From assembly GCA_021732785.1 (NCBI GenBank), contig JAKFUG010000043.1, positions 1 through 64,000 on the forward strand: DNA of 64,000 nt. The letters are read 5' to 3'. The stretch is from Planctomycetaceae bacterium (GTDB lineage Bacteria > Planctomycetota > Planctomycetia > Planctomycetales > Planctomycetaceae). The translations under genes were made by a program, and so were the position numbers. Every line of letters starts with the position of its first letter. The stretch's first letter is position 1. The notes under the pieces are model-generated. The model was not told the origin of the DNA. It saw only the letters and a list, made by a program, of their open reading frames with translations, and made no database searches. Shown in pieces: positions 9,841 through 39,080 of this stretch.

Positions 9841-10095
9841 ATGGGGCCGAATCATCGACGGACAATTCAGGCCATTTTCGAGGATCCGGTCCGTTCCAAT
9901 ATTCTGTGGCGAGACATCGAGAATCTGTTGACAGCGCTCGGGGCGCAGCTCAGCCAGGGGGCGGGATCGCGGGTGCGGATCGCTTTGAACGGCATGCGGG
10001 CCGTCTTTCACCGGCCGCATCCCCAGAAGGAAACCGATAAGGGCGCCGTCAAATCCATGCGGCGGTTTCTGAAGGAAGCAGGAGTCACACCATGA
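9841..10095 (+). CDS. hicA: HicA-family mRNA interferase toxin
   Basis: An 84-residue double-stranded-RNA-binding-fold toxin. It contains the typical helix (ILWRDIENLLTALGAQL), the GSRVRIALNGMRAVFHRPHP strand pair with the catalytic histidine, and the KSMRRFLKEAGV C-terminus. HicA cleaves mRNA when not bound by HicB. GGAG sits five bases before the ATG at 9841. The stop overlaps the hicB start by four bases (ATGA), so the two are translationally coupled. Confidence 0.9.
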   Translation: MGPNHRRTIQAIFEDPVRSNILWRDIENLLTALGAQLSQGAGSRVRIALNGMRAVFHRPHPQKETDKGAVKSMRRFLKEAGVTP

Positions 10096-10496
10096 TGGAA
10101 TATCACGGCTATCTCGGCCAAGTCGAGTTCGATGACGATGCCGGTATTTTTCACGGCGAAGTCATCAACACGCGCGATGTAATCACCTTCCAGGGCAAAA
10201 CCGTGGACGCTTTACGGAAGGCGTTTCAGGAATCGGTCGACGATTACCTGGCATTCTGCAAAGCCCGCGGAGAAGCCCCCGACAAGCCGTTTTCAGGGCA
10301 ATTTGTCACGCGCATCCCGCCCGATCTGCATCGTCAGGTCAGTCTTGCCGCTCATGTCACCGGCAAAAGTCTCAACGCCTGGGTGACAGAACAACTGCGA
10401 GACGCGGTCGTTCGTAACCGTCCTGGAAAGCGGTCCGCGACGAAAACGGTGCGAAAGAAAACGGCCCGTAAGACGACGAAAGCCGGCAGCAAATAA
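10092..10496 (+). CDS. hicB: HicB-family antitoxin with Lys/Arg-rich tail
   Basis: A 134-residue antitoxin partner of the upstream HicA. The N-terminal half (YLGQVEFDDDAGIFHGEVI) is the partial RNase H fold that covers the toxin; residues about 72-105 (IPPDLHRQVSLAAHVTGKS, WVTEQLRDAV) form a ribbon-helix-helix DNA-binding domain, so it should repress its own operon. The last 25 residues are a lysine/arginine/threonine tail (KKTARKTTKAG) like histone H1 tails, which is unusual for HicB. A strong terminator follows at 10524. Confidence 0.9.
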   Translation: MMEYHGYLGQVEFDDDAGIFHGEVINTRDVITFQGKTVDALRKAFQESVDDYLAFCKARGEAPDKPFSGQFVTRIPPDLHRQVSLAAHVTGKSLNAWVTEQLRDAVVRNRPGKRSATKTVRKKTARKTTKAGSK

Positions 10497-10523
10497 TCCG
10501 TCGGTATCACCGCGACGAAACGC

Positions 10524-10563
10524 AGACGCCCGGCATCCTGGGAGATGTCGGGCGTCTATTTTG
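10524..10563 (+). terminator. Terminator after hicAB
   Basis: Arms 10524-10537 and 10544-10557 pair over 14 bases with one mismatch around a 6-base loop and are followed by ATTTTGAT. The hairpin lies between the hicB stop and the convergent lipoprotein gene, so it may serve both. Confidence 0.8.
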
Positions 10564-10591: not shown

Positions 10592-11140
10592 TCATTCCGC
10601 ATCGAGAAACGGCGTACGCTGGTTGGTGCCGGGCAGGAAGGAGGTCGGCAACCAGCTCTTTTCCGACGAGCGCTCAGCCGACCCGGCTTCCGGGGCGTTG
10701 GGTTTCGGCGGCGTTTCCAATGCGGGCGCAGCCGGCTTGAGTTCGGTTTCGACGGGCACGCCGGGGTAGTCGGGCGTCCGCATCACGTCGGGAACTTTCG
10801 CGGATTTCGGCGGCGAGAGAATGCCGACGAGCGGCACGGCTTGCGACGGATACGAGTACGGATGATTCGGCGGGTAATGTTGCTGGTCGCAATATCCGCC
10901 CCAAATCCCCTGCTGGCACCGGCACGGACAAAGTTTGCGATTCAAGGGAGACCAGCACCAGTCCGGTCGACCGGCGCGGGACGCATCCCACGGCGGGTAA
11001 TACCAGCGGTCCCAGAGGATGTCGACGTCGGACACGCAATCGATGGTATCGTGGTACCGTTCGATCCCCGGCACACAGCGACAACCCGAGAGCAGGCCCA
11101 ACCAGCACATCAAACCGACGAGCGTGATCCCACGCAGCAT
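10592..11140 (-). CDS. Small proline-rich lipoprotein
   Basis: A 182-residue putative lipoprotein. The signal (GITLVGLMCWLGLLSGC) ends in the lipobox LLSGC with the lipid cysteine at residue 20. The mature N-terminus has many Trp, Tyr and Cys residues (WDRWYYPPWD, LCPCRCQQG) and the C-terminal half is proline-rich and disordered. I know of no family; planctomycetes encode many such proteins. It is convergent with hicAB. Confidence 0.7.
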   Translation of the reverse strand: MLRGITLVGLMCWLGLLSGCRCVPGIERYHDTIDCVSDVDILWDRWYYPPWDASRAGRPDWCWSPLNRKLCPCRCQQGIWGGYCDQQHYPPNHPYSYPSQAVPLVGILSPPKSAKVPDVMRTPDYPGVPVETELKPAAPALETPPKPNAPEAGSAERSSEKSWLPTSFLPGTNQRTPFLDAE

Positions 11141-11500
11141 GTTCGATCCCCCCTGTTCGCTCCGACGGCGACTTTGGTCGCTGTCAGAACCCTATCGGCG
11201 GACCGACTTTGATGACTTCAACGATTTTGCGAAGTCTGTTGATTCTAGGGAGCTTACGGAATTTAGGGTGGTGTTGCCCGTCCGAAGATGGCGGCCCAAC
11301 CCCGGGATCGTGTCCTCAGTTGAAGCCAGCAGCCCGGCTGCTCCGAAGCAGCCGGGCTGCTTTCCGCGCTGTCAGCCATCAAATTCGGATACGGCCAACC
11401 CCGGCGGAAGAGGCGGAATCGTTCGCCCTGAGCCCAGCGGCGGGTTAAGATGGGGGGCTCGCTGTTTCGCGCTCCCGAGTCATCCGAAGCCAATCCACTG
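11141..11500. other. Promoter region upstream of the giant synthase gene
   Basis: A 360-base divergent intergenic region between the lipoprotein gene and the synthase gene. It contains the perfect hairpin at 11328-11361 and otherwise no clear feature. Confidence 0.5.
11328..11361. repeat. CAGCCGGG-type hairpin, copy 1
   Basis: Perfect 15-base arms (11328-11342 and 11347-11361) around a 4-base loop. The same core, with the same flanking words (CAGCGCGGAAAGC), recurs inside the synthase gene at 13601 and, with a related flank, at 52549. A fourth hairpin with the CCCGGCTGCT core is at 15370. Confidence 0.85.
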
Positions 11501-14500
11501 ATGTCGACCGAACGTATTGCCATTGTCGGCATGGGGGGAGTTTTTCCCGGAGCCACGGATCTCGCCGGCTTCTGGCAAAATGTCGCCCATGGTGTCGACA
11601 GTGGCCGTGCAGCATCTGCGGAGCGCTGGTTTCTGAAACCGGAACGCGCCCTGGCCGCTGGCGGTCCGCAACCCGATCGCGTCTATTCGACGTGGTGTTG
11701 CCCACTCGATGACGCCGCACTCGAGTTCGACCCCGCGGTCTTGCCGCAGCCTGCCATCGGGGAACGGTTGGGACAACTCGATCCCTTGTTCCGCATTGGT
11801 TTGAAAGCGGCACATCAGGCGTGGACGTCCGCGGGGTCGCCGAACATCGATCCGTCCCGCGCCGGGGTGATCCTCGGACACATCGTGTTGCCGACGGAAT
11901 CGACATCGGCCCTCGCGCGCGATGTCCTCGTGCAGGACTTCGCCGCGAAGTTGCTGGGGGACCGCGCTCCGCAGTGGCAACCGTCAAAATGGAACCGTCG
12001 CAACTGGTCGGCGGCGGGGTTGCCAGCGGCGCTGATTGCCGGGGCGCTCGGACTGCGTGGCACCGCGTTTACGTTGGACGCCGCGTGTGCGTCGTCGCTG
12101 TATGCGTTGAAACTGGCGTGCGATGAATTGCGGGCCGGTCGCGCGGATGTGATGCTTGCCGGCGGTCTTTCACGGCCCGATTGCCAATACACGCAGATGG
12201 GGTTCGCGCAGTTGCAGGCGCTGACCAGGCGCGGCCGGTGTGCCCCGCTGTCCGCCGCCGCGGATGGGCTCGTGGTCGGCGAAGGGGCCGGCATTTTTGT
12301 GCTGAAACGGCTCGGCGATGCCCTTCGTGACGGTGACCGCATCGCCGCCACCATTGCCGGGATTGGTCTCTCCAACGACCGCGGGGCAAATTTGCTCGCG
12401 CCGCATTCGGAAGGCCAACTCCGCGCGATGCAGGCGGCGTATCAACAAGCGGGTTGGCGACCGGGCGATGTCGATCTCATCGAATGCCACGCCACCGGCA
12501 CCCCGATTGGTGACGCGGTGGAACTCGACAGTCTCCACACGTTGTGGCACGAAGAAACTGGCCAACCACGGCGGTGTGTGCTCGGTTCGGTGAAGTCCAA
12601 CGTCGGTCACCTGCTCACCGGTGCGGGCGGTGCGAGCCTGATGAAAATGCTATGGGCGCTGCAGCAGCAAACATTGCCGCCGACCGCGAACTTTATCGAT
12701 CCTGCCCCGGCGCTGAACCGTGCGGACAGCCCGTTTCAGGTGCTCGCGCAGTCACAACGGTGGGAAGCTCGCGACGACAAAACACCACGCCGGGCGGCGA
12801 TCAACGCGTTCGGCTTCGGCGGCATCAATGCGCACGTGCTACTGGAAGAGGTTGAGGGTTTAGGGCTTAGAGCTAAGGGACAGAGACATACAGAAGATCT
12901 GTCTGCAACGGTGTCATTGTCTTCCTCCGTCCCTCAGCCCTTAGCTCTTAGCTCTCAGCCCTCCATCGCCATCGTCGGTCTCGCAGCGCGGTGCGGTTCG
13001 CTCACCCGCATCGACGACATTGCCGCACGGTTCTTCGGCACGGGCTCCAGCATCCGGACCGATATTGCCGAAGTGGCGACGCCGGTGGGGGAGTTTCGTA
13101 TTCCGCCGCTGGAACTCGAAGAGATGTTGCCGCAGCAGCAGTTGATGCTGCACGTGGCGGCGGCGGCGCTCGATGATGCCCATTGTGGCCGCGATCTCGG
13201 CAACCGTACGGGCGTGTTCGTCGGTATCAACCTTGATCCCAACACAACGAACTTTCACGGCCGGTGGTCGCTGGAAGAATTCGCCCCGGACTGGGGTGCG
13301 CGGTTGGGGTGGACGTTGTCGCCTGAAGAAATGACAGCGTGGGTGCAACAACTCCGCGATGTCTTCGGACCGCCGCTCACTCCGAACCGCGTGATGGGCA
13401 ACCTCGGGGGCATCGTCGCCAGCCGCCTCGCGCGCGAATTCGACGTCGGCGGGCCGAGTTTCACGCTTTCCAGCGATGAAACCTCCGGCGTGCAGGCCTT
13501 GCAAGTCGCCGTGCGGTCGTTGCAACAGGGCGAGTTAGATCGCGCGCTGGTAGGTGCGGTCGATTTCCAATGTGATGTGCGGCTGGCGAACAGCGCGGAA
13601 AGCACCCCGGCTGCTTCTGAGCAGCCGGGGTGCTCTTTGCCAGCGCCCCTGCCGGGGGATGCCGCTGTCGCATTCATCCTGAAGCGACACGAAGACGCCG
13701 TGCGCGACGGCGACCGCATCTACGCCTTGGTCACCGATGTGACGTCGTCTTCGTCCCACTCTCAACTCTCAACCCTCAACTCTCCACCTCCGCACCTCGA
13801 AACCGACCTCGGCCATTGCGGGGCCGCGACCGGGTTGCTTGCGTGCTTGAAGTCCACATTGTCCCTGCATCACCGGGTCATCCCGCCCACCACGCCGGGG
13901 GATCCGCATGGAGCGCAAGCCTGGTTGCACGATCGCATCAATGGCCCGCGCACCAGCACGACAACGGTCACCGCCGCCGATGGCACGCACGTTGTGGTCA
14001 CTTTGCAAGCAGCGGCGAACACGAATCGCACGCCGCCGTTGTCCGCGGGTGTATTTGTATTCGATGGCGACACGCCGCAAGAAATTCTTACCGCGATGGA
14101 CCAATGTCGGCCGCTCATCACCGACGACATCACGCCGCATCGCGCCGCGCAGCGCTGGTTCCATCAGCGCCGTCCGGATGCGCAGCGAAAACTCGCCGCA
14201 GTGATCGTGGCCAGTTCGTCATTGGAATGGCACGCCGCCGCGGATCAACTCCGTGCGACATTAACCGCTTCGCCTTTCCGACCACCGACCACCGACCACC
14301 GGCCACCCGCCTTCTTCACACCGACGCCGCTCGGCAACACCGGCCGCATCGCCTTCGTTTTTCCCGGCTCGGGCAACCATTTCCTCGGCATGGGAAAGGA
14401 ATTGCTGGCCGCGTTTCCGCAGGTGCTACAACAGCAGGATGCCGAAAACGAACGGCTCGCGAGCCAGTATCAACCGGACCTCATCTGGAATGGGCCGTCG

Positions 14501-17500
14501 ACCGATGCGATTGGCCGCGATCACAAGGCGATGATCTTTGGACAGGTCGCGCTCGGCACCGCCGTGTGCGATTGGCTCGCCCTTTTCGGCGTTCGTCCCA
14601 CCGCAGCGATGGGCTACAGCCTAGGTGAATCGGCGGCGCTGTTCGGGTTGCGGGCGTGGACCGATCGCGATGAAATGCTCCGGCGGATGGAAGCGTCCAC
14701 GCTCTTCGGCAGCGATCTGGTCAAACCATTTGATGCCGCGCGACAGGTGTGGGCCATCCCACAGGGGCAAGAGGTGCCGTGGTTGTCGGGTGTGGTGGAT
14801 CGTTCCGCGATACAAGTCAGCGAAGTTCTGCAACGGCGGACACGTGTGTACCTGCTCATCGTCAACACGCCGACGCAATGCGTCATCGGCGGCGATCGCA
14901 CGCAGGTGGAAGCCCTCGTCCGCGATTTGCAGGCGACGTTCGTCCCCTTCCCGGCTCCGAGCACGGTCCATTGTGAACTGTTGCAACCGGTGGCCAAGGC
15001 GTACGTCGCGCTGCATCTGATGCGGACCACGCCGCCGGTGGGTGTCGATTTCTACAGTGCCGCGACCGGGTTGCCGTACGGCCTCAGCGAACAATCCGCC
15101 GCGGGGGCGATTCTCGCCCAAGCCCGCGGAACCGTCGATTTTCCAGCGGTCATCGAACGGGCCTATGCCGATGGCGTGCGGTTGTTCGTCGAGATCGGGC
15201 CGGGCTCGTCCTGCACGCGGATGATCGACGACATTCTTGGCGAGCGCCCGCATTGGGCACGACCGGTTATGCCCGCGACCGCGGATCCGGTGACGCATGC
15301 GCTGCGGGTGCTCGGTGAACTCATCACACATCGGGTGCCAGTTGATCTTTCCCTGTTGTACGGTTCAGACCGCGCGTTGCTAGCATCCCGGCTGCTCCGC
15401 AGCAGCCGGGATGCTAGCAACGCGCGGTGTGTGATCACGAAGACCACGTTGCCCGATTGGCAGCTCGCGCCGTTGACACAGCGTCCGCAATCCCAGCCCG
15501 TCGTGTCACCAGTCCCTGTTCTCGCCCCGGCGTCCGCCCCTCTGCGACCGAAAGAAAGTCCGATCGTGCCGCTCCGTTCGCCTGCACCGTCGAGTGCCGT
15601 CCAAAATGATCCCGCCCCGGCACGCTGGGATGGCAACGGGGTTGAGGGTCGCGGGGCGAAGGTTGAGGGTCAGAAAAATGTGCCGGTCACTTTAATGGAA
15701 CGATCCTTGTCCGCCTCCAACCCTCAACCCTCAACCCTCAACTCTCAACCCGTCGGAGCGGACAGCACCGTTACACTGCTCGACCGCTGGATGACCGAGC
15801 GGATCGCGGCCCATGAGACGTTCTTACGGTTTTCGACCGAGGCGCAGCGGCTGGCGGCGGAATGGGTCTCGAATGGGGACACTGAGACCGAGTTGGCGCG
15901 GGACGCGAAACCGCAAGCGGATGTGGCGGTCGTACCGACATTGCCGCGGCCGGTACCATCCGCGCCGGTTCGCCCCGTCGAACCACCGCGGTCGTTGAAC
16001 TACGACCAATGTATGGAGTTCGCGATCGGTAAGATCGGCAATGTGCTTGGTGAAAAATTCGCGGCGATTGATGCGTATCCCACGCGCGTGCGGCTGCCCG
16101 ATGTGCCATTGATGCTGGTGGATCGCATTCTTCACATCGAAGGCGAACCATTGTCGATGACGCACGGCCGCGTCGTCACCGAGCACGATATCCATGCCGA
16201 CGACTGGTACCTCGACTGCGGCAAGATTCCGACGTGCCTCGCCGTGGAATCGGGACAGGCGGATTTGTTCCTCTCCGGTTGGCTCGGCATCGATTTCATC
16301 ACCCGCGGGTTGGCAAGCTATCGGTTACTCGATGCGGTGGTCACGTTCCATGACGCACTGCCGGGGCCGGGGAACACCATTCATTACGACATCAAAATCA
16401 ACCGCTTCTTTCAACAGGGGGACACGTATCTCTTTCGCTTTGAATTCGATGCGACCGTCGACGGAAGGCCGTTGCTCACCATGCGCGACGGTGTCGCCGG
16501 GTTCTTCACGATGGCGGAACTCGCCGCCGGGCAGGGGATTGTGCATACCGCGCTGGACAAACAACCGCGGCCGGGAAAACGCCCGGAAAATTGGCTCGAT
16601 CCCGTGCCGATGGCGGTCGAGTCCTACAGCGATGCCCAACTCACCGCGCTGCGTCACGGCGATCTCGCGGCATGCTTCGGGCCGGTGTTCGCCGGGTTGC
16701 CGCTGCATCATCCAGTGACATTACCGTCGGGCCGCTTGAATCTCGTGCATCGCGTGCTGGAACTCGATCCCAGCGGCGGCAAATTCGGCATGGGCAAGAT
16801 TCGTGCAGAAGCGGATATCCACCCCGATGACTGGTTTCTCACCTGCCATTTCTGCGACGACCAGGTGATGCCTGGCACGCTGATGTACGAGTGCTGTCTC
16901 CACACGCTCCGCATTTTCCTGCTGCGCATGGGCTGGATCGGCGAAGCGGGCCAGATCGACTACGAACCGGTGCCGGGCGTGAAAAGCCGCCTCAAGTGCC
17001 GTGGCCAGGTTCTCGCCAGCACGAAGAAGGTGTGGTATGAGGTGACGCTGAAGGAAGTGGGGGAGGGCTTAGGGCTAAGGGCTGAGGGTTTAGGGACAGA
17101 GGGAGACGATGAGTCACTGTATTGCATCGCGGATGCGTTGATGTACGCGGATGGCAAAGCCATCGTCGAGATCACCGACATGTCGGTGCGATTGACGGGA
17201 CTGAGTCGTGTGGATGTTGAAGCGCTTTGGAGCGGAGAACCAGTTGGCTTAGGGCTAAGGGCTAAGGGTTTAGGGACCGAAGAAAATGCCGATGCCCAAT
17301 TCTCTTCTCCGTCCCTTCACCCTAAACCCTTAACCCTTAGCCAACCTCTGTCCCTGAACCCTCAGCCCTTAGCCCTTAGCCCCCTCTTCGACACCGCCCG
17401 CATCACCGCGTTCGCGATTGGCAAACCGTCTGAAGCCTTTGGCGACCGTTACAAAATCTTCGACAACGAGCGCGTGATCGCACGATTGCCGGGGCCGCCG

Positions 17501-18529
17501 TTTCAGTTCTTGGATCGCATTGTCTCCATCGAGAATTGCGAGCCGTGGAAACTCGCGGCGGGCGGCGTGATTGAAGCCGAGTACGATGTCCCGGCGGATG
17601 CGTGGTATTTCGCGGCGAACCGACAGCGTGCCATGCCCTTCGCCGTGCTCCTGGAAGCGGCCCTGCAACCATGCGGCTGGCTCGCGGGATATCTCGGTTC
17701 CGCTTTGACGAGCGACAGCGATCTCTCGTTCCGCAACCTCGGCGGCACCGCGACGCAGTACGAAGAGGTCTACCCCGACTCCGGCACGCTCACCACGACG
17801 GTGAAAATGACCGCGGTCTCGCAGTCCGCCGGCATGATCATCCAGCATTACACTTTCGACCTGCGCTGCAACGGCCGCCCGGTGTACGTCGGCAAGACGT
17901 ACTTCGGGTTCTTCTCGAAGGCCGCGCTCGAAAATCAGGTCGGCATCCGTGATGCTGCGGTCTACCAGCCGACCGATGAGGAACGCCAGCGCGGCGAATC
18001 ATTCCCGCTTCCGACCGAGCCGCCGTTTCCGGACGACCAATTCCGCATGGTGAAACAGGTTGACCTGTTCGTCCCCGACGGCGGACCGCACGGCTTCGGC
18101 TACATCCGTGGCAGCGTGAATGTCGATCCGGAGTTGTGGTTCTTCAAAGCCCACTTTTATCAAGACCCCGTGTGGCCGGGTTCGCTGGGGCTGGAATCGT
18201 TCCTGCAGTTGCTGAAGGTGTATGTGGCGAGGAGGTGGGGGAGTGGCTTAGGGCGAAGGGCAAAGGGTTTAGGGACGGAGGAAAACGCCGACGCCCAATT
18301 CTCTTCTCTGTCCCTTAGCCCTCAACCCTTAGCCCTTAGCCACTCCCACGAATGGATCTACCGCGGTCAGGTGATTCCGCGCGACAAAACGGTTACCGTG
18401 GAAGTCGTGGTGACGGCGGTCGATGACGACCGAAAAATCGCCACCGCGGACGGCTTCCTGACGGTCGACGGCCGCGTGATTTATCAGATGAAACAATTCA
18501 CGCTTGCGCTTTGCGGACCCCACGAGTAA
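11501..18529 (+). CDS. PUFA-synthase-like multidomain protein (KS-CLF-AT-DHx4)
   Basis: A 2342-residue type I PKS/FAS related to PfaC and PfaB. Domains: active ketosynthase (about 3-450; DAACASS with Cys near 196, ECHATGTPIGD, GSVKSNVGHL); a second KS-like chain-length factor (about 487-920) whose active cysteine is lost (TLSSDETSG); acyltransferase (about 945-1275; FVFPGSGNHF, serine in GYSLGES near 1039); then four FabA-type hotdog dehydratase domains (about 1500-1680, 1720-1900, 1965-2145, 2180-2340; HFCDDQVMPGTLMYE in DH2, HFYQDPVWPGSLGLE in DH4). I find no ACP motif and no KR, so partners must be elsewhere. At least eight palindromic repeat insertions lie in frame within linkers and loops. 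The start at 11501 (MSTERIAIVG) fits KS openings; 51 bases separate it from oleA. Confidence 0.9.
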   Translation: MSTERIAIVGMGGVFPGATDLAGFWQNVAHGVDSGRAASAERWFLKPERALAAGGPQPDRVYSTWCCPLDDAALEFDPAVLPQPAIGERLGQLDPLFRIGLKAAHQAWTSAGSPNIDPSRAGVILGHIVLPTESTSALARDVLVQDFAAKLLGDRAPQWQPSKWNRRNWSAAGLPAALIAGALGLRGTAFTLDAACASSLYALKLACDELRAGRADVMLAGGLSRPDCQYTQMGFAQLQALTRRGRCAPLSAAADGLVVGEGAGIFVLKRLGDALRDGDRIAATIAGIGLSNDRGANLLAPHSEGQLRAMQAAYQQAGWRPGDVDLIECHATGTPIGDAVELDSLHTLWHEETGQPRRCVLGSVKSNVGHLLTGAGGASLMKMLWALQQQTLPPTANFIDPAPALNRADSPFQVLAQSQRWEARDDKTPRRAAINAFGFGGINAHVLLEEVEGLGLRAKGQRHTEDLSATVSLSSSVPQPLALSSQPSIAIVGLAARCGSLTRIDDIAARFFGTGSSIRTDIAEVATPVGEFRIPPLELEEMLPQQQLMLHVAAAALDDAHCGRDLGNRTGVFVGINLDPNTTNFHGRWSLEEFAPDWGARLGWTLSPEEMTAWVQQLRDVFGPPLTPNRVMGNLGGIVASRLAREFDVGGPSFTLSSDETSGVQALQVAVRSLQQGELDRALVGAVDFQCDVRLANSAESTPAASEQPGCSLPAPLPGDAAVAFILKRHEDAVRDGDRIYALVTDVTSSSSHSQLSTLNSPPPHLETDLGHCGAATGLLACLKSTLSLHHRVIPPTTPGDPHGAQAWLHDRINGPRTSTTTVTAADGTHVVVTLQAAANTNRTPPLSAGVFVFDGDTPQEILTAMDQCRPLITDDITPHRAAQRWFHQRRPDAQRKLAAVIVASSSLEWHAAADQLRATLTASPFRPPTTDHRPPAFFTPTPLGNTGRIAFVFPGSGNHFLGMGKELLAAFPQVLQQQDAENERLASQYQPDLIWNGPSTDAIGRDHKAMIFGQVALGTAVCDWLALFGVRPTAAMGYSLGESAALFGLRAWTDRDEMLRRMEASTLFGSDLVKPFDAARQVWAIPQGQEVPWLSGVVDRSAIQVSEVLQRRTRVYLLIVNTPTQCVIGGDRTQVEALVRDLQATFVPFPAPSTVHCELLQPVAKAYVALHLMRTTPPVGVDFYSAATGLPYGLSEQSAAGAILAQARGTVDFPAVIERAYADGVRLFVEIGPGSSCTRMIDDILGERPHWARPVMPATADPVTHALRVLGELITHRVPVDLSLLYGSDRALLASRLLRSSRDASNARCVITKTTLPDWQLAPLTQRPQSQPVVSPVPVLAPASAPLRPKESPIVPLRSPAPSSAVQNDPAPARWDGNGVEGRGAKVEGQKNVPVTLMERSLSASNPQPSTLNSQPVGADSTVTLLDRWMTERIAAHETFLRFSTEAQRLAAEWVSNGDTETELARDAKPQADVAVVPTLPRPVPSAPVRPVEPPRSLNYDQCMEFAIGKIGNVLGEKFAAIDAYPTRVRLPDVPLMLVDRILHIEGEPLSMTHGRVVTEHDIHADDWYLDCGKIPTCLAVESGQADLFLSGWLGIDFITRGLASYRLLDAVVTFHDALPGPGNTIHYDIKINRFFQQGDTYLFRFEFDATVDGRPLLTMRDGVAGFFTMAELAAGQGIVHTALDKQPRPGKRPENWLDPVPMAVESYSDAQLTALRHGDLAACFGPVFAGLPLHHPVTLPSGRLNLVHRVLELDPSGGKFGMGKIRAEADIHPDDWFLTCHFCDDQVMPGTLMYECCLHTLRIFLLRMGWIGEAGQIDYEPVPGVKSRLKCRGQVLASTKKVWYEVTLKEVGEGLGLRAEGLGTEGDDESLYCIADALMYADGKAIVEITDMSVRLTGLSRVDVEALWSGEPVGLGLRAKGLGTEENADAQFSSPSLHPKPLTLSQPLSLNPQPLALSPLFDTARITAFAIGKPSEAFGDRYKIFDNERVIARLPGPPFQFLDRIVSIENCEPWKLAAGGVIEAEYDVPADAWYFAANRQRAMPFAVLLEAALQPCGWLAGYLGSALTSDSDLSFRNLGGTATQYEEVYPDSGTLTTTVKMTAVSQSAGMIIQHYTFDLRCNGRPVYVGKTYFGFFSKAALENQVGIRDAAVYQPTDEERQRGESFPLPTEPPFPDDQFRMVKQVDLFVPDGGPHGFGYIRGSVNVDPELWFFKAHFYQDPVWPGSLGLESFLQLLKVYVARRWGSGLGRRAKGLGTEENADAQFSSLSLSPQPLALSHSHEWIYRGQVIPRDKTVTVEVVVTAVDDDRKIATADGFLTVDGRVIYQMKQFTLALCGPHE
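12851..12963 (+). repeat. In-frame TTAGGG/CCCTAA palindrome, KS-CLF linker
   Basis: A left arm with TAGGGCTTAGAGCTAAGG and a right arm with CCCTTAGCTCTTAGCTC lie 50 bases apart inside the synthase gene. The frame is kept, giving a Leu/Gly/Ser-rich linker between the ketosynthase and the chain-length factor. Confidence 0.8.
13601..13634 (+). repeat. CAGCCGGG-type hairpin, copy 2 (in coding)
   Basis: Perfect 15-base arms (13601-13615, 13620-13634) around a 4-base loop inside the chain-length-factor domain. It encodes STPAASEQPGCS in frame and is preceded by the same CAGCGCGGAA word found beside copy 1. Confidence 0.85.
13759..13793 (+). repeat. CTCAACTCTCAACCCTCAAC arm (in coding)
   Basis: A solitary arm of the CAACCCTCAACC family inside the chain-length factor, encoding SQLSTLNSP just before the LGHCGAATG motif. 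No partner arm is visible close by. Confidence 0.6.
15370..15427 (+). repeat. 27-bp perfect hairpin inside the synthase gene
   Basis: Arms 15370-15396 and 15401-15427 are perfectly complementary over 27 bases with a CCGC loop. The centre carries the CCCGGCTGCT core of the CAGCCGGG family; the outer 12 bases are unique. It lies in the AT-DH linker and encodes RALLASRLLRSSRDASNAR. Confidence 0.9.
15640..15752 (+). repeat. GGTTGAGGG/CCCTCAACC palindrome (in coding)
   Basis: Left arm words GGTTGAGGGTC (twice) and right arm words CAACCCTCAACCCTCAAC flank a 60-base centre in the proline-rich AT-DH linker. The same right-arm words occur at 13759 and upstream of the AAA ATPase gene near 55572. Confidence 0.75.
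15905..15920 (+). repeat. GCGAAACCGCAAGCGG unit (in coding)
   Basis: A copy of the dispersed 16-base unit in the synthase linker, read as DAKPQA. The same unit is read in the same frame in oleC and in the radical SAM gene. Confidence 0.75.
17062..17387 (+). repeat. Nested in-frame palindromes in DH2
   Basis: An outer arm (17062-17107, GGGCTTAGGGCTAAGGGC) has its inverse at 17344-17387. Between them lie 47 codons of genuine dehydratase sequence and a second complete palindrome (17245-17344). All of it is in frame. The outer arm interrupts a beta-hairpin loop of the second hotdog domain. Confidence 0.8.
18240..18348 (+). repeat. In-frame palindrome in DH4, same core as 17245-17344
   Basis: Arms built of AGGGCAAAGGGTTTAGGG and its inverse flank a loop containing CGCCCAATTCTCTTCT. 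The loop is nearly identical to that of the copy at 17245-17344, so these two are copies of one element. In frame, it encodes EENADAQFSS and flanking Gly/Leu/Ser residues. Confidence 0.8.
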
Positions 18530-18580: not shown

Positions 18581-19750
18581 ATGGTCATGAAATACAACCG
18601 TGTCTACGTCGATGCCATCGGGTACGAACTCGCGCCCGTGGTCGTCACATCGACGGAGATCGAAACCCGGCTCGAACCGCTGTACCAGAAGCTGCGGATT
18701 TCGCCGGGGCAACTGGAAGCGTGGACGGGGATCGCCGAACGCCGGTGGTGGGAAGAAGGCCACAGTCTCAGCGATGGCGCGACCGAAGCCGCCCGGCGGG
18801 CGCTCGAACAATCCAACGTCGCCGCCCGCGATCTGGACATTCTCATCTACGCCGGGGTTTGCCGGGAACACTTTGAACCCGCGACGGCATGTTCGGTCGC
18901 GGCGAAGCTCCACATCAGTCCCGATGCCGCGATTTTTGATGTCAGCAATGCGTGCCTGGGCGTGCTCAACGGCATGGTCGACATTGCGAACCGCATCGAA
19001 CTTGGCCAGATCCGCGCGGGAATGGTTGTCTCCTGCGAAACCGCCCGCGAGATCATCGATTACACGATTCAACGCCTGCTCGAAGACATGAGCATGGACT
19101 CGCTGACAAAATCGCTGGCCACACTCACCGGCGGGTCCGGTGCGGTCGCCGTCTTGTTGACCGACGGATCGTTCAGCAAAGCCCATCAGCATCGATTACT
19201 CGGCGGCGTGACGAAATCGGCTCCCGAACACCATTCGCTCTGCCGCTGGGGCTTTGAATCGTTGCTTCCCGCCGCGGTGGATAAGGTCGAGCAGATTTTG
19301 CCGTCGGCTCTCACGCAGACCAAGTTCGGCCGGTTTATGCCGTCGCTCGTTCAACAGAGAGTGAGCGGCCTGCTCCCTGCGAAATTGCAGCACGCCTTCA
19401 CGCAGTTCATGCAGACCGATTCCATCTCCGTGCTGCGGTTCGGCGTCGATCTCGGCATGAAAACGTGGGACAGTTTCCTCGCCAAGATCGGCCTGCGTCC
19501 CGACCAGATCGATAAGGTGATCTGCCACCAGGTCGGCAAAGGCCACCGCGATCAGGTCATGCAAACCCTCGGCATCGCCCCGGGGAAAGACTTCAACACC
19601 TATCCGTACCTGGGCAACATCGGCACCGTCAGCCTGCCGCTCACCGCCGCGATTGCCGACGAGCGGGGCTTCCTCGAAAAAGGAGACCGCGTCGGCCTCC
19701 TCGGCATCGGCAGCGGCCTCAACTGCCTGATGCTCGCGGTGGATTGGTAG
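18581..19750 (+). CDS. oleA: OleA: 3-oxoacyl-ACP synthase III-type head-to-head condensing enzyme
   Basis: A 389-residue thiolase-fold enzyme of the OleA group. The active cysteine is in VSNACLGVLNGM, the histidine in ICHQVGKGH, and the asparagine in YLGNIGTVSLP. The AGVCREHFEPATA segment carries the glutamate that OleA uses as a base from the second monomer, which sets it apart from FabH. OleA condenses two acyl-CoAs to a 2-alkyl-3-keto acid. It lies 51 bases after the PUFA-synthase-like gene and upstream of oleB and oleC, so it is probably in the same operon. ATG at 18581 or 18587. Confidence 0.9.
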   Translation: MVMKYNRVYVDAIGYELAPVVVTSTEIETRLEPLYQKLRISPGQLEAWTGIAERRWWEEGHSLSDGATEAARRALEQSNVAARDLDILIYAGVCREHFEPATACSVAAKLHISPDAAIFDVSNACLGVLNGMVDIANRIELGQIRAGMVVSCETAREIIDYTIQRLLEDMSMDSLTKSLATLTGGSGAVAVLLTDGSFSKAHQHRLLGGVTKSAPEHHSLCRWGFESLLPAAVDKVEQILPSALTQTKFGRFMPSLVQQRVSGLLPAKLQHAFTQFMQTDSISVLRFGVDLGMKTWDSFLAKIGLRPDQIDKVICHQVGKGHRDQVMQTLGIAPGKDFNTYPYLGNIGTVSLPLTAAIADERGFLEKGDRVGLLGIGSGLNCLMLAVDW

Positions 19751-20234: not shown

Positions 20235-20372
20235 GGCAGTGCTCCATGAGTGAGTGAAGGGCGAGGGACTCGGTCAACCAATTCCATTGTGCCTTCCCTC
20301 AATGGTTTGACAATCTCACGATTTCGATCCCGCAACTTTTCTCTTGCACTCCTGCATTCTTTTTCCTTCCTC

Positions 20373-20412
20373 CTTTTTGTGTCTTCTGTGCTTCCTGTGG
20401 CTAAAAACTCTT
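20373..20412 (-). repeat. Right arm of inverted repeat bracketing the GxxExxY gene
   Basis: This is the inverse of 19757-19795 (TTTTGTGTCTTCTGTGCTTC then CTGTGGCTAAAAACTCTT). It runs into the 5' end of oleB. Confidence 0.85.
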
Positions 20413-21281
20413 CCATCCCCGCATTCGCTTTCCCTCCCCACTTCGCCGAGATCGGTGGGCATCGGCTTCATTATCTCGATGAGGGCAGCGGTGCGCCGGT
20501 GGTGATGGTGCATGGGAACCCGAATTGGGTCTATTACTGGCGGAACTTGATTCCCGCGTTGTCGGATCGGTTTCGTTGCCTCGCGATTGATCACATCGGG
20601 TGCGGGTTGTCCGACAAGCCGACGGATGAAAAATATCCGTATACACTGTCGCGGCGGATTGATGATCTCGAAACGTGGCTCGATGGTCTCGGCGTGCGCG
20701 AGAACATTTCATTCGTCGCGCATGACTGGGGAGGCATGATTGCGTGCGGGTATGCGACGCGGCATCCCGAACGCATCGCGAAGCTGGTGATGCTCAACAC
20801 CGGGGCGTTTCCGTTGCCGGTGACGAAACCGGTGCCGTGGCAATTGAAGCTCGCACGAACGCCGCTGCTGGGGGCAATGCTGGTGCGCGGGTTCAATGCG
20901 TTCAGCCGCGGGGCGGTGCAATCGTGTGTGACGCGCAAGCCGATGCCGCCGGATGTCGCGGCAGCATACTGTGCGCCGTATGACTCGTGGGCCAATCGCA
21001 TCGCCGTGCATCGCTTCGTGCAAGATATTCCGTTGCAACCGGGCGATCGCGCTTGGGACACGGTTAACAACGTTGCGGATCGGTTGAGTCTGCTAAGCGG
21101 CAAGCCGATGTTGCTTGGATGGGGTGATCGCGATTTCGTGTTCGATCACCACTTCCTTGAGGAATGGCAACGCCGTTTCCCAAACGCCGAACTGCACCGC
21201 TTTCCCGACTGCGGCCATTATATTTTGGAAGACGCCGCGGAAGAACTCATCCCGGCGATTCGTGCGTTTCTGGTGAAGTGA
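20397..21281 (+). CDS. oleB: OleB: alpha/beta hydrolase, beta-lactone decarboxylase
   Basis: About 294 residues, haloalkane-dehalogenase-like alpha/beta hydrolase. The oxyanion motif is HGNPNWVYYW, the nucleophile is Asp in AHDWGGM, and the histidine is in CGHYILEDAAEE. OleB removes CO2 from the beta-lactone made by OleC to give a cis-olefin. The true start is uncertain: similarity begins around PPHFAEIGGHRLHYLDEG, and the nearest in-frame start upstream is the GTG at 20397, which lies inside the inverted-repeat arm; another GTG at 20250 would translate the whole arm. It overlaps oleC by one base (TGATG). Confidence 0.88.
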   Translation: MAKNSSIPAFAFPPHFAEIGGHRLHYLDEGSGAPVVMVHGNPNWVYYWRNLIPALSDRFRCLAIDHIGCGLSDKPTDEKYPYTLSRRIDDLETWLDGLGVRENISFVAHDWGGMIACGYATRHPERIAKLVMLNTGAFPLPVTKPVPWQLKLARTPLLGAMLVRGFNAFSRGAVQSCVTRKPMPPDVAAAYCAPYDSWANRIAVHRFVQDIPLQPGDRAWDTVNNVADRLSLLSGKPMLLGWGDRDFVFDHHFLEEWQRRFPNAELHRFPDCGHYILEDAAEELIPAIRAFLVK

Positions 21282-22987
21282 TGGCTGCATCCATCGAACC
21301 TTTGCGACGCTGGCTTGATGATCCGGAAGCGGCGCTCGCGTCATCGAACGTCGCGGCGGCGTTTGTCCGGCAGGCGGTGGAACGACCCCAAGTGCATGCC
21401 GTCGCCACTCCGCGTGGCGGTTTCTTATCGTCGCCACGGACGCGCGCGTATGAGTTCACCACGTTTGGCCATCTCGTTGAAGGAGCCGAGCGTGTCGCGC
21501 TGGGGCTGCATCGTTTGAGCATCGGTCCGGGTACGCGTGTGGCGTTGATGGTGCCGCCATCGGTGGAACTGATTCAACTCGTCTATGCGTTGTTTCAGCT
21601 CGGTGCGGTCCCGGTGCTGATCGATCCGGGAATGGGACTGAAGAACATCGGCAAGTGCCTGGCAGAAGCCGAACCTGCCGCATTCATCGGGATCACGAAA
21701 GCTCACATTGCGCGCAGTGTTGCCGGATGGGGACGTCAGTCGGTGCGACAACTCGTGACCGTCGGCCGCTCGACAGGATGGTGGGGCGGCGTCACGTTGA
21801 AATCGTTGATGGTCGCCGAAGCCACGGAGAAGTCGCCGTTCTTCAACGCCATGAACGACGACCCCGCCGCGATTCTTTTCACGAGTGGCAGCACGGGGGT
21901 GCCCAAAGGGGCGGTCTACACGCATGGCATCTTCAATGAGCAGATTCGACAATTGCGAACGCTCTTTCACATTGAGCCGGGCGATGTTGATCTCTGTACG
22001 TTTCCGCTGTTCGCATTGTTCGCGCCCGTGCTGGGAATGATGGCGGTGATTCCGCGAATGGATGCGACCCGACCGGCGAAAGTGCGCTCATCCGAGATTA
22101 TTGATGTCGCTAACCGCCTCAGCGTCACGAATTTGTTTGGATCGCCGGCATTGTTGAACCGTGTGGGGCAAGCCGCAGAAACAGGTGTCAAACTTCCGAA
22201 TGTGTCGCGTGTCCTCTCGGCGGGCGCACCGGTGTCACCACGCATTCTCGAACGCTTTTCTCAATTGCTGTCCCCCGGCGTACAAATCTATACCCCTTAC
22301 GGTGCCACCGAGGCGTTACCCGTTGCGGTCATCGGCAGCGATGAAGTCCTGCAGGACACGCGGCATCAGACCGCGCGCGGGGCGGGGACGTGTGTCGGGC
22401 GACCGGTGGCGGGATTGGAGGTGCGCATCATTCGCATCAGTGATGAATCAATCGCGGCATGGTCCGATGATCTGGTGTTGCCTTCGGGCGAAATTGGCGA
22501 GATCGCGGTGTATGGGCCACAGGTGACGCAGGAGTATTTCCGTCGCCCGGACCTCACGGCCCTCGCGAAGATTCCTGACACCACGCGCGGGCGGAAGTGG
22601 CATCGCATGGGGGATGTCGGTTACTTCGATGAGCAGGGCCGCTTGTGGTTCTGCGGGCGGAAGTCGCAGCGCGTGATCACGCCGCAGCGGACATATTTTA
22701 CCGATCCCGTGGAAGGGGTTTTCAATGCGGTTCCAGCGGTGTTTCGTACGGCGTTGGTCGGTGTGAAACGAGATGGGGAGATGCAACCCGTCCTGTGCGT
22801 GGAGTTGGAGCGGGGCGCGAAGCCGCAAGCGAGCATTCGTGACGAACTGTTATCACGCGGGGCCGAGTTGGAACTGACGCGCGACATCCGCACGATTCTG
22901 TTCCATCCGCGCTTCCCCGTCGACATCCGCCACAACTCGAAAATCTTCCGCGAAAAACTCGCCGTGTGGGCCGCAAAACAACGCTGA
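21281..22987 (+). CDS. oleC: OleC: AMP-dependent beta-lactone synthetase
   Basis: A 568-residue ANL-superfamily enzyme. The AMP-binding signature is ILFTSGSTGVPKGAVYTH (near residue 200), with YTPYGATEALP and GDVGYFDEQGRLWFCGRK for adenylate contacts and a C-terminal domain with the lysine region NSKIFREKLA. OleC adenylates the beta-hydroxy acid and closes the beta-lactone. The ATG overlaps the oleB stop by one base. The dispersed unit GCGAAGCCGCAAGCGA lies in frame at 22817, giving GAKPQA in a surface loop of the C-terminal domain. No oleD gene is present in the window. Confidence 0.88.
   Translation: MAASIEPLRRWLDDPEAALASSNVAAAFVRQAVERPQVHAVATPRGGFLSSPRTRAYEFTTFGHLVEGAERVALGLHRLSIGPGTRVALMVPPSVELIQLVYALFQLGAVPVLIDPGMGLKNIGKCLAEAEPAAFIGITKAHIARSVAGWGRQSVRQLVTVGRSTGWWGGVTLKSLMVAEATEKSPFFNAMNDDPAAILFTSGSTGVPKGAVYTHGIFNEQIRQLRTLFHIEPGDVDLCTFPLFALFAPVLGMMAVIPRMDATRPAKVRSSEIIDVANRLSVTNLFGSPALLNRVGQAAETGVKLPNVSRVLSAGAPVSPRILERFSQLLSPGVQIYTPYGATEALPVAVIGSDEVLQDTRHQTARGAGTCVGRPVAGLEVRIIRISDESIAAWSDDLVLPSGEIGEIAVYGPQVTQEYFRRPDLTALAKIPDTTRGRKWHRMGDVGYFDEQGRLWFCGRKSQRVITPQRTYFTDPVEGVFNAVPAVFRTALVGVKRDGEMQPVLCVELERGAKPQASIRDELLSRGAELELTRDIRTILFHPRFPVDIRHNSKIFREKLAVWAAKQR
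22817..22832 (+). repeat. GCGAAGCCGCAAGCGA unit (in oleC)
   Basis: In-frame copy of the dispersed unit, encoding GAKPQA. The bases just before it (GCGGGGC) also match the copies in the radical SAM gene and at 26484. Confidence 0.75.
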
Positions 22988-23459
22988 AAAGAAGAGTTTT
23001 TAGCCGCAAAAAGGCGCAGAAGGACGCAAAAAGAAGACAGAGAATCAGAGGATATTTTTGCCACAAGAGGCACAAAGGCCACAAAAGGAAAGAGAAGAGA
23101 ATGTGTCTCTGACTGGATTCCCCTTTTGTACTACTAAGGGTCAAAATCTTTGCGTGATGCGAAGATTTTGAAGTTCCAAATTCCAAACGCCAAGTTCCAA
23201 ACAAAGGCCAAATTCCAAGTTCCAAACGGGGAGCGGACACTCTTCGTTTGGAATTTCTGTCTCTTTGGAGCTTGTTTGGAACTTGGAACTTGGAATTTGG
23301 AACTTGGAGCTTTCCTGATATCGATTGGGTTGCGGGTTCCCCGCGCTGGGCTTCTTGTGGCCAAAACTCTGCTCTCTTCCTTTTGCGTCCTCTTGCGCCT
23401 TTTTCGCGGCTCACTCCTCTTTCTGGTATGCTCGGCGGACACTCTTCGAGGAACCGCGG
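22988..23459. repeat. Composite palindromic intergenic element, copy A
   Basis: This 470-base gap is nearly all repeat. From the left: an arm AGCCGCAAAAAGGCGCAG, a CCACAAGAGGCACAAAGG arm, then a 224-base core (23129-23352) of TTCCAAATTCCAAACG and inverse TTGGAACTTGGAA words ending in GGGTTCCCCGCGCTGGGCTT, then the inverse of the first arm (CTTGCGCCTTTTTCGCGGCT). The core recurs inverted at 38624-38836. Confidence 0.85.
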
Positions 23460-38623: not shown

Positions 38624-38836
38624 AAGCCCAGCGCGGGGAACCCGCAGCCCAAGCGGCCAGAATGAAGTTCCAAGCTCCAAATTCCAAGCTCCAAACAAAT
38701 TCCAGGGAAGGCAGAAATTCCAAACGAGGAGTGCCCTTCCCTGCTTGGAATTGGGTCCTTGTTTGGAATTTGGCGTTTGGAACTTGGAACGTCAAATTTC
38801 TTCGCGCCGCGCAAAGATTCTGACGGTTAGTAGTAC
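38624..38836. repeat. Composite palindromic element, copy B (inverted)
   Basis: This is the inverse of 23129-23352: it begins with AGCCCAGCGCGGGGAACCCG, runs through CCAAATTCCAAGC and TTGGAACTTGGAA words, and ends with GCAAAGATTCTGACGG then TTAGTAGTA. Both ends and the order of words match copy A. Confidence 0.85.
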
Positions 38837-38878
38837 AAGTGGACGCAACAAGGAAGAAAACAGAAGTGGCGGAGGTTT

Positions 38879-38980
38879 GCCACAAGAGGCACAGAAGACA
38901 CAAAAAAGAAGGCGAGAAGAGAGCCATCCGCTTCACTGTTTCTCTTTTGTGCCTTCTGTGTCTCTTGTGGCTAAAACTCT
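38879..38980. repeat. Solo CCACAAGAGGCACAGAAG inverted pair
   Basis: Arms 38879-38906 and 38945-38971 (extended to 38980) carry the same words as the arms around the GxxExxY gene but enclose only about 38 bases. A CGCTTGCGCCTTTTCGCGGC word follows, as it does in copy A. Confidence 0.8.
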
Positions 38981-39080
38981 TTATCTTTCCTGTTTCGTCC
39001 GCTTGCGCCTTTTCGCGGCAAACCTTCTTTCCTCTCCGTTGCAGTTGAAACAGCCATCGCGACATTGCACCATACGGAAC

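Follow-up and report, generated by a model that had tools for sequence, protein, structure and literature searches.

The synthase gene and its repeat tracts

The window analyzed here is a stretch of 64,000 nt from a Planctomycetaceae genome (G000) that is available as a draft of 96 contigs. It contains a synthase frame that encodes a KS, a KS-like CLF, an AT, and four FabA-like dehydratase stretches, and that is open throughout, also across every repeat tract (Table 1). The frame is likewise open in the orthologues of G001, G002, and G003, and the protein is 84% identical to that of the sister species G002, whose assembly is 64% complete. As this sister MAG has several of the same tracts, the caveat of a draft assembly carries less weight.

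Table 1. Positions of the synthase gene and its repeat tracts in the window; bits are scores with the covariance model R1.
Position	Strand	Feature	Location and remarks
11325-11361	+	REP palindrome, same family as 13601-13634 and 15370-15427	Upstream of the synthase
11450-18529	+	Lipid/PUFA-type synthase, KS-CLF-AT-(FabA-like DH)x4	2359 aa
12848-12961	+	Heptad palindrome, GGGCTAA subfamily	KS-CLF linker; R1 82.7 bits
13601-13634	+	REP palindrome	Chain-length factor loop; cognate RAYT gene at G000:C8
13755-13788	+	Single heptad array, CTCAACC word	CLF loop; absent from G002
14274-14314	+	Heptad array, CCACCGA word	Between CLF and AT; common to G002
15370-15427	+	REP palindrome, extended outer stem	AT-DH linker
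15638-15752	+	Heptad palindrome, GGTTGAG subfamily	AT-DH linker; R1 45 bits; not in G002
15893-15919	+	Dispersed 27-mer GCGCGGGGCGCGAAACCGCAAGCG	Includes most of 15905-15920, the weakest tract of the earlier list
17062-17100	+	Left outer heptad arm	DH2 beta-hairpin loop; 97% identical to G002; pLDDT <50
17244-17343	+	Heptad palindrome, GGGCTAA subfamily	DH2-DH3 linker; R1 97.6 bits
17346-17385	+	Right outer heptad arm	Complementary 35/39 to 17062-17100
18243-18342	+	Heptad palindrome, GGGCTAA subfamily	DH4 loop; R1 99.8 bits

The synthase carries at least nine repeat tracts, all of them in frame. Eight had been listed in an earlier note on this DNA and were all found where it had placed them; the array at 14274-14314 is the ninth. 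The note had further claimed that no tract breaks the frame, which is confirmed by the frame of the sister species being open end to end as well, and that the four word families also occur outside genes, which holds. Its view of all tracts as one palindrome phenomenon remains valid for the heptad palindromes, of which the gene contains four complete copies plus separate arms, but not for two tracts that we assign to the REPs of a RAYT, a different class of element; the 27-mer is a minor addition to these two kinds. Three of the tracts are missing from G002, which retains only the right arm of the palindrome in the DH2-DH3 linker and has the AT-DH linker REP with altered outer arms. The outer inverted pair at DH2 encloses conserved DH2 coding sequence.

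Three look-alikes, of a KASIII-type condensing enzyme (18581-19750), an alpha/beta hydrolase (20250-21281), and an AMP-binding enzyme (21164-22987), lie downstream. Their order recalls OleA-OleB-OleC of olefin synthesis, and it is possible that the synthase supplies a hydrocarbon pathway. Nested palindromes with outer GCCACAAGAGGCACA arms and inner TTCCAA/TTGGAA heptad arms are present at 23057-23403 and 38665-39013, and a heptad array at 23273 lies outside the called genes.

Most tracts of the synthase are united by a 7-nt period. With a threshold of at least 17 matches in a 21-nt window (autocorrelation by period), we detected 13 period-7 arrays in 840 kb of the genome but 10 within the 7.08-kb synthase gene alone (odds ratio 91, p about 1e-15, with paired arms not being independent). 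Periods of 5, 6, 8, 10, 11, and 13 gave no arrays in the same 840 kb, and there were no period-7 arrays in four other giant-ketosynthase gene regions of this genome. The idea that the synthase is the sole affected gene was dropped, as genome-wide gene calls put arrays in other genes. For this assignment, a codon-usage gene call and Pfam were used in place of a longest-ORF rule, which had understated the coding copies.

Arrays were also analyzed in 80 synthase orthologues of public genomes, compared by pairwise mapping. In 18 of these orthologues, which include planctomycetes, Desulfobacterota, and Elusimicrobia, 7-nt arrays of many words were found inside the gene, clustering in the KS-CLF, AT-DH, and DH2-DH3 linkers. 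By base, 39 arrays in 536 kb of synthase compare with 3 in 265 kb of neighboring giant ORFs (p about 1e-4); counted per gene, arrays occur in 17/80 synthases versus 3/46 neighboring giant ORFs (p 0.04). As most of these arrays have no inverted partner (present for 7 of 42), they are a looser phenomenon than the palindromes. In-frame arrays of unrelated words in the same linkers were noted in synthase orthologues of other lineages at L137, L148, L150, L157, L174, L181, L188, and L209.

Heptad palindromes and REPs across the genome

The heptad palindromes consist of two inverted arms, each with 3-5 degenerate heptads, around an unconserved loop that is unique to each copy. Copies at different loci have a common scaffold of heptad order and inner stem (GGGACRGA/TCTGTCCC), and their lengths range from 85 to 152 nt across 34 sites, with a 30-pair stem. 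The covariance model R1, built from nine copies, gave 63 two-strand matches in G000 (about 32 sites), 60 in G001, 51 in G002, and 17 in G003. At the 34 sites examined in G000, 13 palindromes are in frame in 9 genes and 21 are outside genes. Host genes named by Pfam are those of IleRS, an AsnRS-type tRNA synthetase, MetH, MnmG/GidA, KdtA, hydantoinase A/B, DUF7133/cytochrome c proteins, and the synthase; MetH contains two palindromes, one in each of two interdomain linkers, and ValRS has two separate heptad arrays. With 4 of the 13 in-frame palindromes, where about 0.016 would be expected from its share of coding length (7.08 kb of about 5.7 Mb), the synthase is a strong outlier in palindrome load. 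Part of this excess is explained by what appears to be a duplication within the gene, judging from the 89% identity between 18243-18342 and 17245-17343.

The palindromes had no match in Rfam, and we found neither a transposase nor a target-site duplication for them. AsnRS, IleRS, and ValRS were searched for an empty site with clean edges and a target duplication, without success; in AsnRS, the native linker is replaced by the tract and not split. The overlap of a Y1_Tnp ORF with the end of the IleRS gene had suggested an origin from RAYT, which was rejected, as none of the eight RAYT loci examined has a heptad palindrome at both ends. This RAYT-like ORF lies at L055:10540-11124, and G002 has a Y1_Tnp match likewise just after its IleRS (C21:19982). 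MetH (L260:4917-9302) has about 105 additional residues (VHRTVRLLAETGLL) at ~1150-1255; this region is present in G000 and G002, absent from G001, G003, and other families, and possibly winged-helix-like.

The two tracts of the other kind, 13601-13634 and 15370-15427, have the hairpin CCGGCTGCTNNGAAGCAGCCGG with an AGCACC...GGTGCT outer stem. This pattern gave 171 two-strand matches in G000, 25 in the incomplete G002, and 0 in G001; its copy number in G000 agrees with the many-copy hairpins of 20-40 nt expected of REPs. At L056, two such hairpins (9890-9927 and 10593-10624) closely flank a Y1_Tnp ORF (9945-10559) that contains the RAYT-like sequence MPNHYHLL. As the hairpin flanks this ORF on both sides, and the outer stem at 13601 is the same as that of the copy beside the Y1_Tnp gene, the sequence evidence identifies both tracts as REPs of that RAYT. 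No GTAG or CGTC tag was seen at a fixed position in 31 REP copies inspected by eye, and the REP thus appears to be outside the two large GTAG/CGTC superfamilies, as far as its sequence tells. Spaced inverted REP pairs of about 60 nt occur elsewhere in the genome, and a REP of the same family lies in frame inside a UvrA-like gene (L110:10350-12887). The REPs at 15370-15427 and L078:8926 have grown into the flank by 19 and 15 bp, respectively, and are palindromes with hardly a mismatch, as expected for palindrome-perfecting template switching. A third candidate repeat in G002, GGCTCCCGCCGAGCC, turned out to be low-copy (3 matches).

Reading frame, selection, and history of the sites

All 13 coding palindromes have an open frame, 12 of them exactly one of six, and the open one is used. 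Only two of eight intergenic GGGCTAA-type copies have any open frame, but intergenic copies of other words are often open too, so that only the GGGCTAA subfamily shows a clear contrast. The peptides of the coding copies are related (LRAKG...PQPLALSPQP or LRVES...QLSTLNSQ); the tract in the KS-CLF linker encodes VEGLGLRAKGQ...PQPLALSSQPS. In the synthase orthologues of many phyla, 54 of 54 arrays are open in the gene frame versus 66 of 108 (61%) in the other two forward frames. All indels relative to the sister species comprise whole codons; as the codon alignment was made on translations, frame retention is supported mainly by the lack of any stop in the two frames from end to end. Since every tract is open in frame, phase variation and a removal in the manner of introns were judged unlikely.

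In comparison to the sister species, dN/dS was 0.035-0.10 for KS, CLF, AT, DH1-2, and DH3-4, 0.12 and 0.27 for two short DH end pieces, and 0.3-1.0 within the tracts. Since the domain cores are under strong purifying selection, the synthase is functional. The synonymous divergence of the arms (pS 0.16-0.35) is below that of the core (0.39-0.56), and therefore something besides neutral protein drift acts on the arm DNA. An AlphaFold model, which covers DH2-DH4 only (40 sequences, mean pLDDT 82.6), had pLDDT values below 50 only at residues 1875-1884, 1935-1974, 2268-2277, and 2288-2296, and these low-confidence loops coincide with the tracts. The tract peptides are thus predicted to be unstructured and to lie in linkers and surface loops, and their retention in the protein is inferred.

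The history of the sites could be followed in relatives. In the three members of the genus, the DH4 loop is 40, 39, and 35 codons long, with strong hairpins (z -9.7, -9.2, and -4.6); it is a plain loop of 20 codons without a hairpin in G003 and G038. At MetH site 1, there are 43 codons in G000 and G002, 44 in G003, and 33 in G001, as compared to 13 and 11 in other families. The same site can hold another word: MetH has GGGCTAA in G000 versus a GATGGTT type in G003, G003 has GAGTTGA at DUF7133 and at the DH2 linker, an AGTGTCA-like remnant marks the IleRS site of G002, and the CLF loop with the REP of G000 holds a GAGTCGA heptad array in G002. Comparable full arms are 88-97% identical between the sister species, with loops at 50-63%; in the KS-CLF palindrome, the arms are 91-94% and the loop is 50% identical. 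Changes on both sides were found for 26 of 30 stem pairs; shuffles gave 18.8 such pairs and slid controls no more than 23, and double-change cells numbered 424 versus about 158. These counts rest on 113 distinct aligned rows that are not independent and include both palindrome strands.

Orthologues in other families had no insertions at the sites compared. The expectation that the tracts are absent elsewhere with clean flanks was thus met in its first half only, since the edges are not clean, the tracts replacing or enlarging linkers that were already variable, and no target-site duplication was found. The earlier note would have been refuted by distant genera with identical peptides in identical positions; these were not encountered at the sites compared, and the sister genus often has a palindrome of a different word there. 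Because many sites are common to the sister species, much of the tract load is inherited rather than a run of fresh insertions. The data are explained either by old insertions with replacement of the word in both arms or by repeated filling of the same sites, and these cannot be separated.

Comparison with known systems and origin of the tracts

In-frame palindromes in protein genes have been reported to be unusually frequent in Rickettsia, whose palindromic elements (RPEs) they constitute (PMC10969869). The planctomycete elements resemble RPEs (PMC3767692, PMC10969869) in being palindromes of ~90-150 nt in several families that lie in frame inside unrelated genes, including housekeeping genes, and also outside genes, in the related peptides of their coding copies, in differing element groups at the same orthologous locus, and in insertion at fold-compatible surface positions, as far as DH2-DH4 were modeled. 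They differ in the phylum, in their arms of degenerate heptads with unconserved loops, in words that vary between genera while stem and site persist, in the several copies within one gene, and in their coexistence with REP/RAYT. By analogy, their character matches the RPE phenomenon in kind, genome-wide, without this making them RPEs by descent. Homology to RPEs across phyla is not to be expected.

Heptanucleotide repeats are well known in bacteria, the cyanobacterial STRR sequences being one example. The unit of exactly 7 nt is shared with the GGGAATC arrays of Xanthomonas, which include many convergent inverted pairs (PMC4692102), and with the TAACTGA repeat of Beggiatoaceae (PMC4679880). 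Those arrays are mainly intergenic, tandem, and of one word, whereas the planctomycete repeats are degenerate, have many words, and in more than one third of the examined palindromes are in frame. Heptamers are the commonest bacterial repeat class, as cited in PMC4679880. The REP family agrees with the REP/REPIN and RAYT systems (PMC2817692, PMC3116915, PMC3733652) in flanking a Y1_Tnp gene on both sides and in its ~60-nt spaced inverted pairs, and departs from REPs, which are named for being extragenic, in having two copies within the reading frame of a gene. The tandem repeats of Borg ORFs (PMC9879509) likewise turn repeat DNA into new disordered protein stretches, but are tandem and belong to archaeal extrachromosomal elements, whereas the present ones are palindromic. 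In the open-access literature, we found no report of such elements in planctomycetes, nor of the in-gene, many-word, site-sharing form.

The observed dispersal, in-frame position in linkers and loops (the latter in the model), retention of the open frame, purifying selection, and absence from outgroups support the earlier note's central reading of recurrent in-frame insertion of RPE-like palindromes, whose mobility is an inference, presence and absence having been seen between species only, and the stems show compensatory changes; this reading does not extend to the two REPs, and it has to accommodate the inherited share and the unclean edges. We consider it probable that a family of short palindromes has spread both intergenically and in frame in protein genes of this planctomycete lineage, RPE-like in kind. 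Insertions would survive where they land in an interdomain linker or surface loop, preserve the frame, and are read in one of the few phases without a stop; they would then give rise to unstructured peptides and be passed on. Having many long linkers, the giant synthase has accumulated the most, and REPs of a RAYT transposase are a second class within it. That the peptides stay in the protein and are neutral is inferred, as is a movement of the heptad palindromes by a hairpin or template-switch related mechanism and a possible homogenization of their arms by conversion between copies. The unique loops and the conserved host codons enclosed by the outer DH2 arms suggest that host DNA can receive arms on both of its sides, an outcome that is possible by template switching but not by simple transposition.

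It is also possible, though rather unlikely, that local mutation and not mobile elements produced the tracts, with slippage making 7-nt arrays, strand or template switching copying an arm inverted nearby, and spread being rare or due to gene conversion. This would agree with period 7 being the only enriched short period with many unrelated words, with the unique loops and the DH2 arms that flank host sequence, with the frequent arrays that lack an inverted partner, with the 19-bp extension of the 15370 REP outer stem, and with a published proposal, as cited in PMC4679880, that 7-nt repeats reflect polymerase slippage. However, the scaffold that copies at different loci have in common requires copying between loci, and all copies found have the G-rich arm first, with the reverse arrangement not found among the loci searched (exact pattern only). 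Local mutation and copying between loci may both be acting.

A function of the tracts, as long flexible linkers or as mRNA hairpins that slow the ribosome at domain borders and thereby aid co-translational folding, we regard as improbable. The stem retained by covariation, the conservation of the arms above that of the loop and of synonymous sites, the strong RNA folding z-scores of intact palindromes (about -3 to -10), and the location at domain borders would fit such a role. The same stem is, however, kept in intergenic copies and so characterizes the element itself, not its use in coding; moreover, other families manage without the tracts, three are dispensed with in G002, and the tract dN/dS is 0.3-1.0. 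With ten arrays in the gene and a unit length of 7, which 3 does not divide, gain or loss of one unit could in principle switch the frame and make the gene phase-variable. This is very improbable: the units within an array differ, so that slow slippage is expected, the frames of the two sister species run open over their full length with indels of whole codons, and the same elements are found in MetH and aminoacyl-tRNA synthetases, whose inactivation would be lethal or carry a very high cost. The number of insertions could even be taken to indicate a decaying gene or an artefactual frame, but the low dN/dS of the core and the open frame common to the G001, G002, and G003 orthologues contradict this reading, the least credible of all.

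For the preferred spread of a palindrome family, a more specific form remains tentative and just short of an even chance: in Planctomycetaceae, independently of Rickettsia, protein-coding palindrome sites persist across genera and have their 7-nt word swapped whole in both arms with the stem intact. If true, some as yet unknown process must rewrite the two arms jointly while the genic site stays fixed. RPE-like palindromes are known from reduced parasite genomes, and if the overall reading is true, the large-genome planctomycetes would be a second lineage for testing the part of selfish repeats in protein loops, with sister species that show presence, absence, and word exchange at the same site. 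The tracts of the synthase would then show where giant lipid synthases naturally tolerate insertions.
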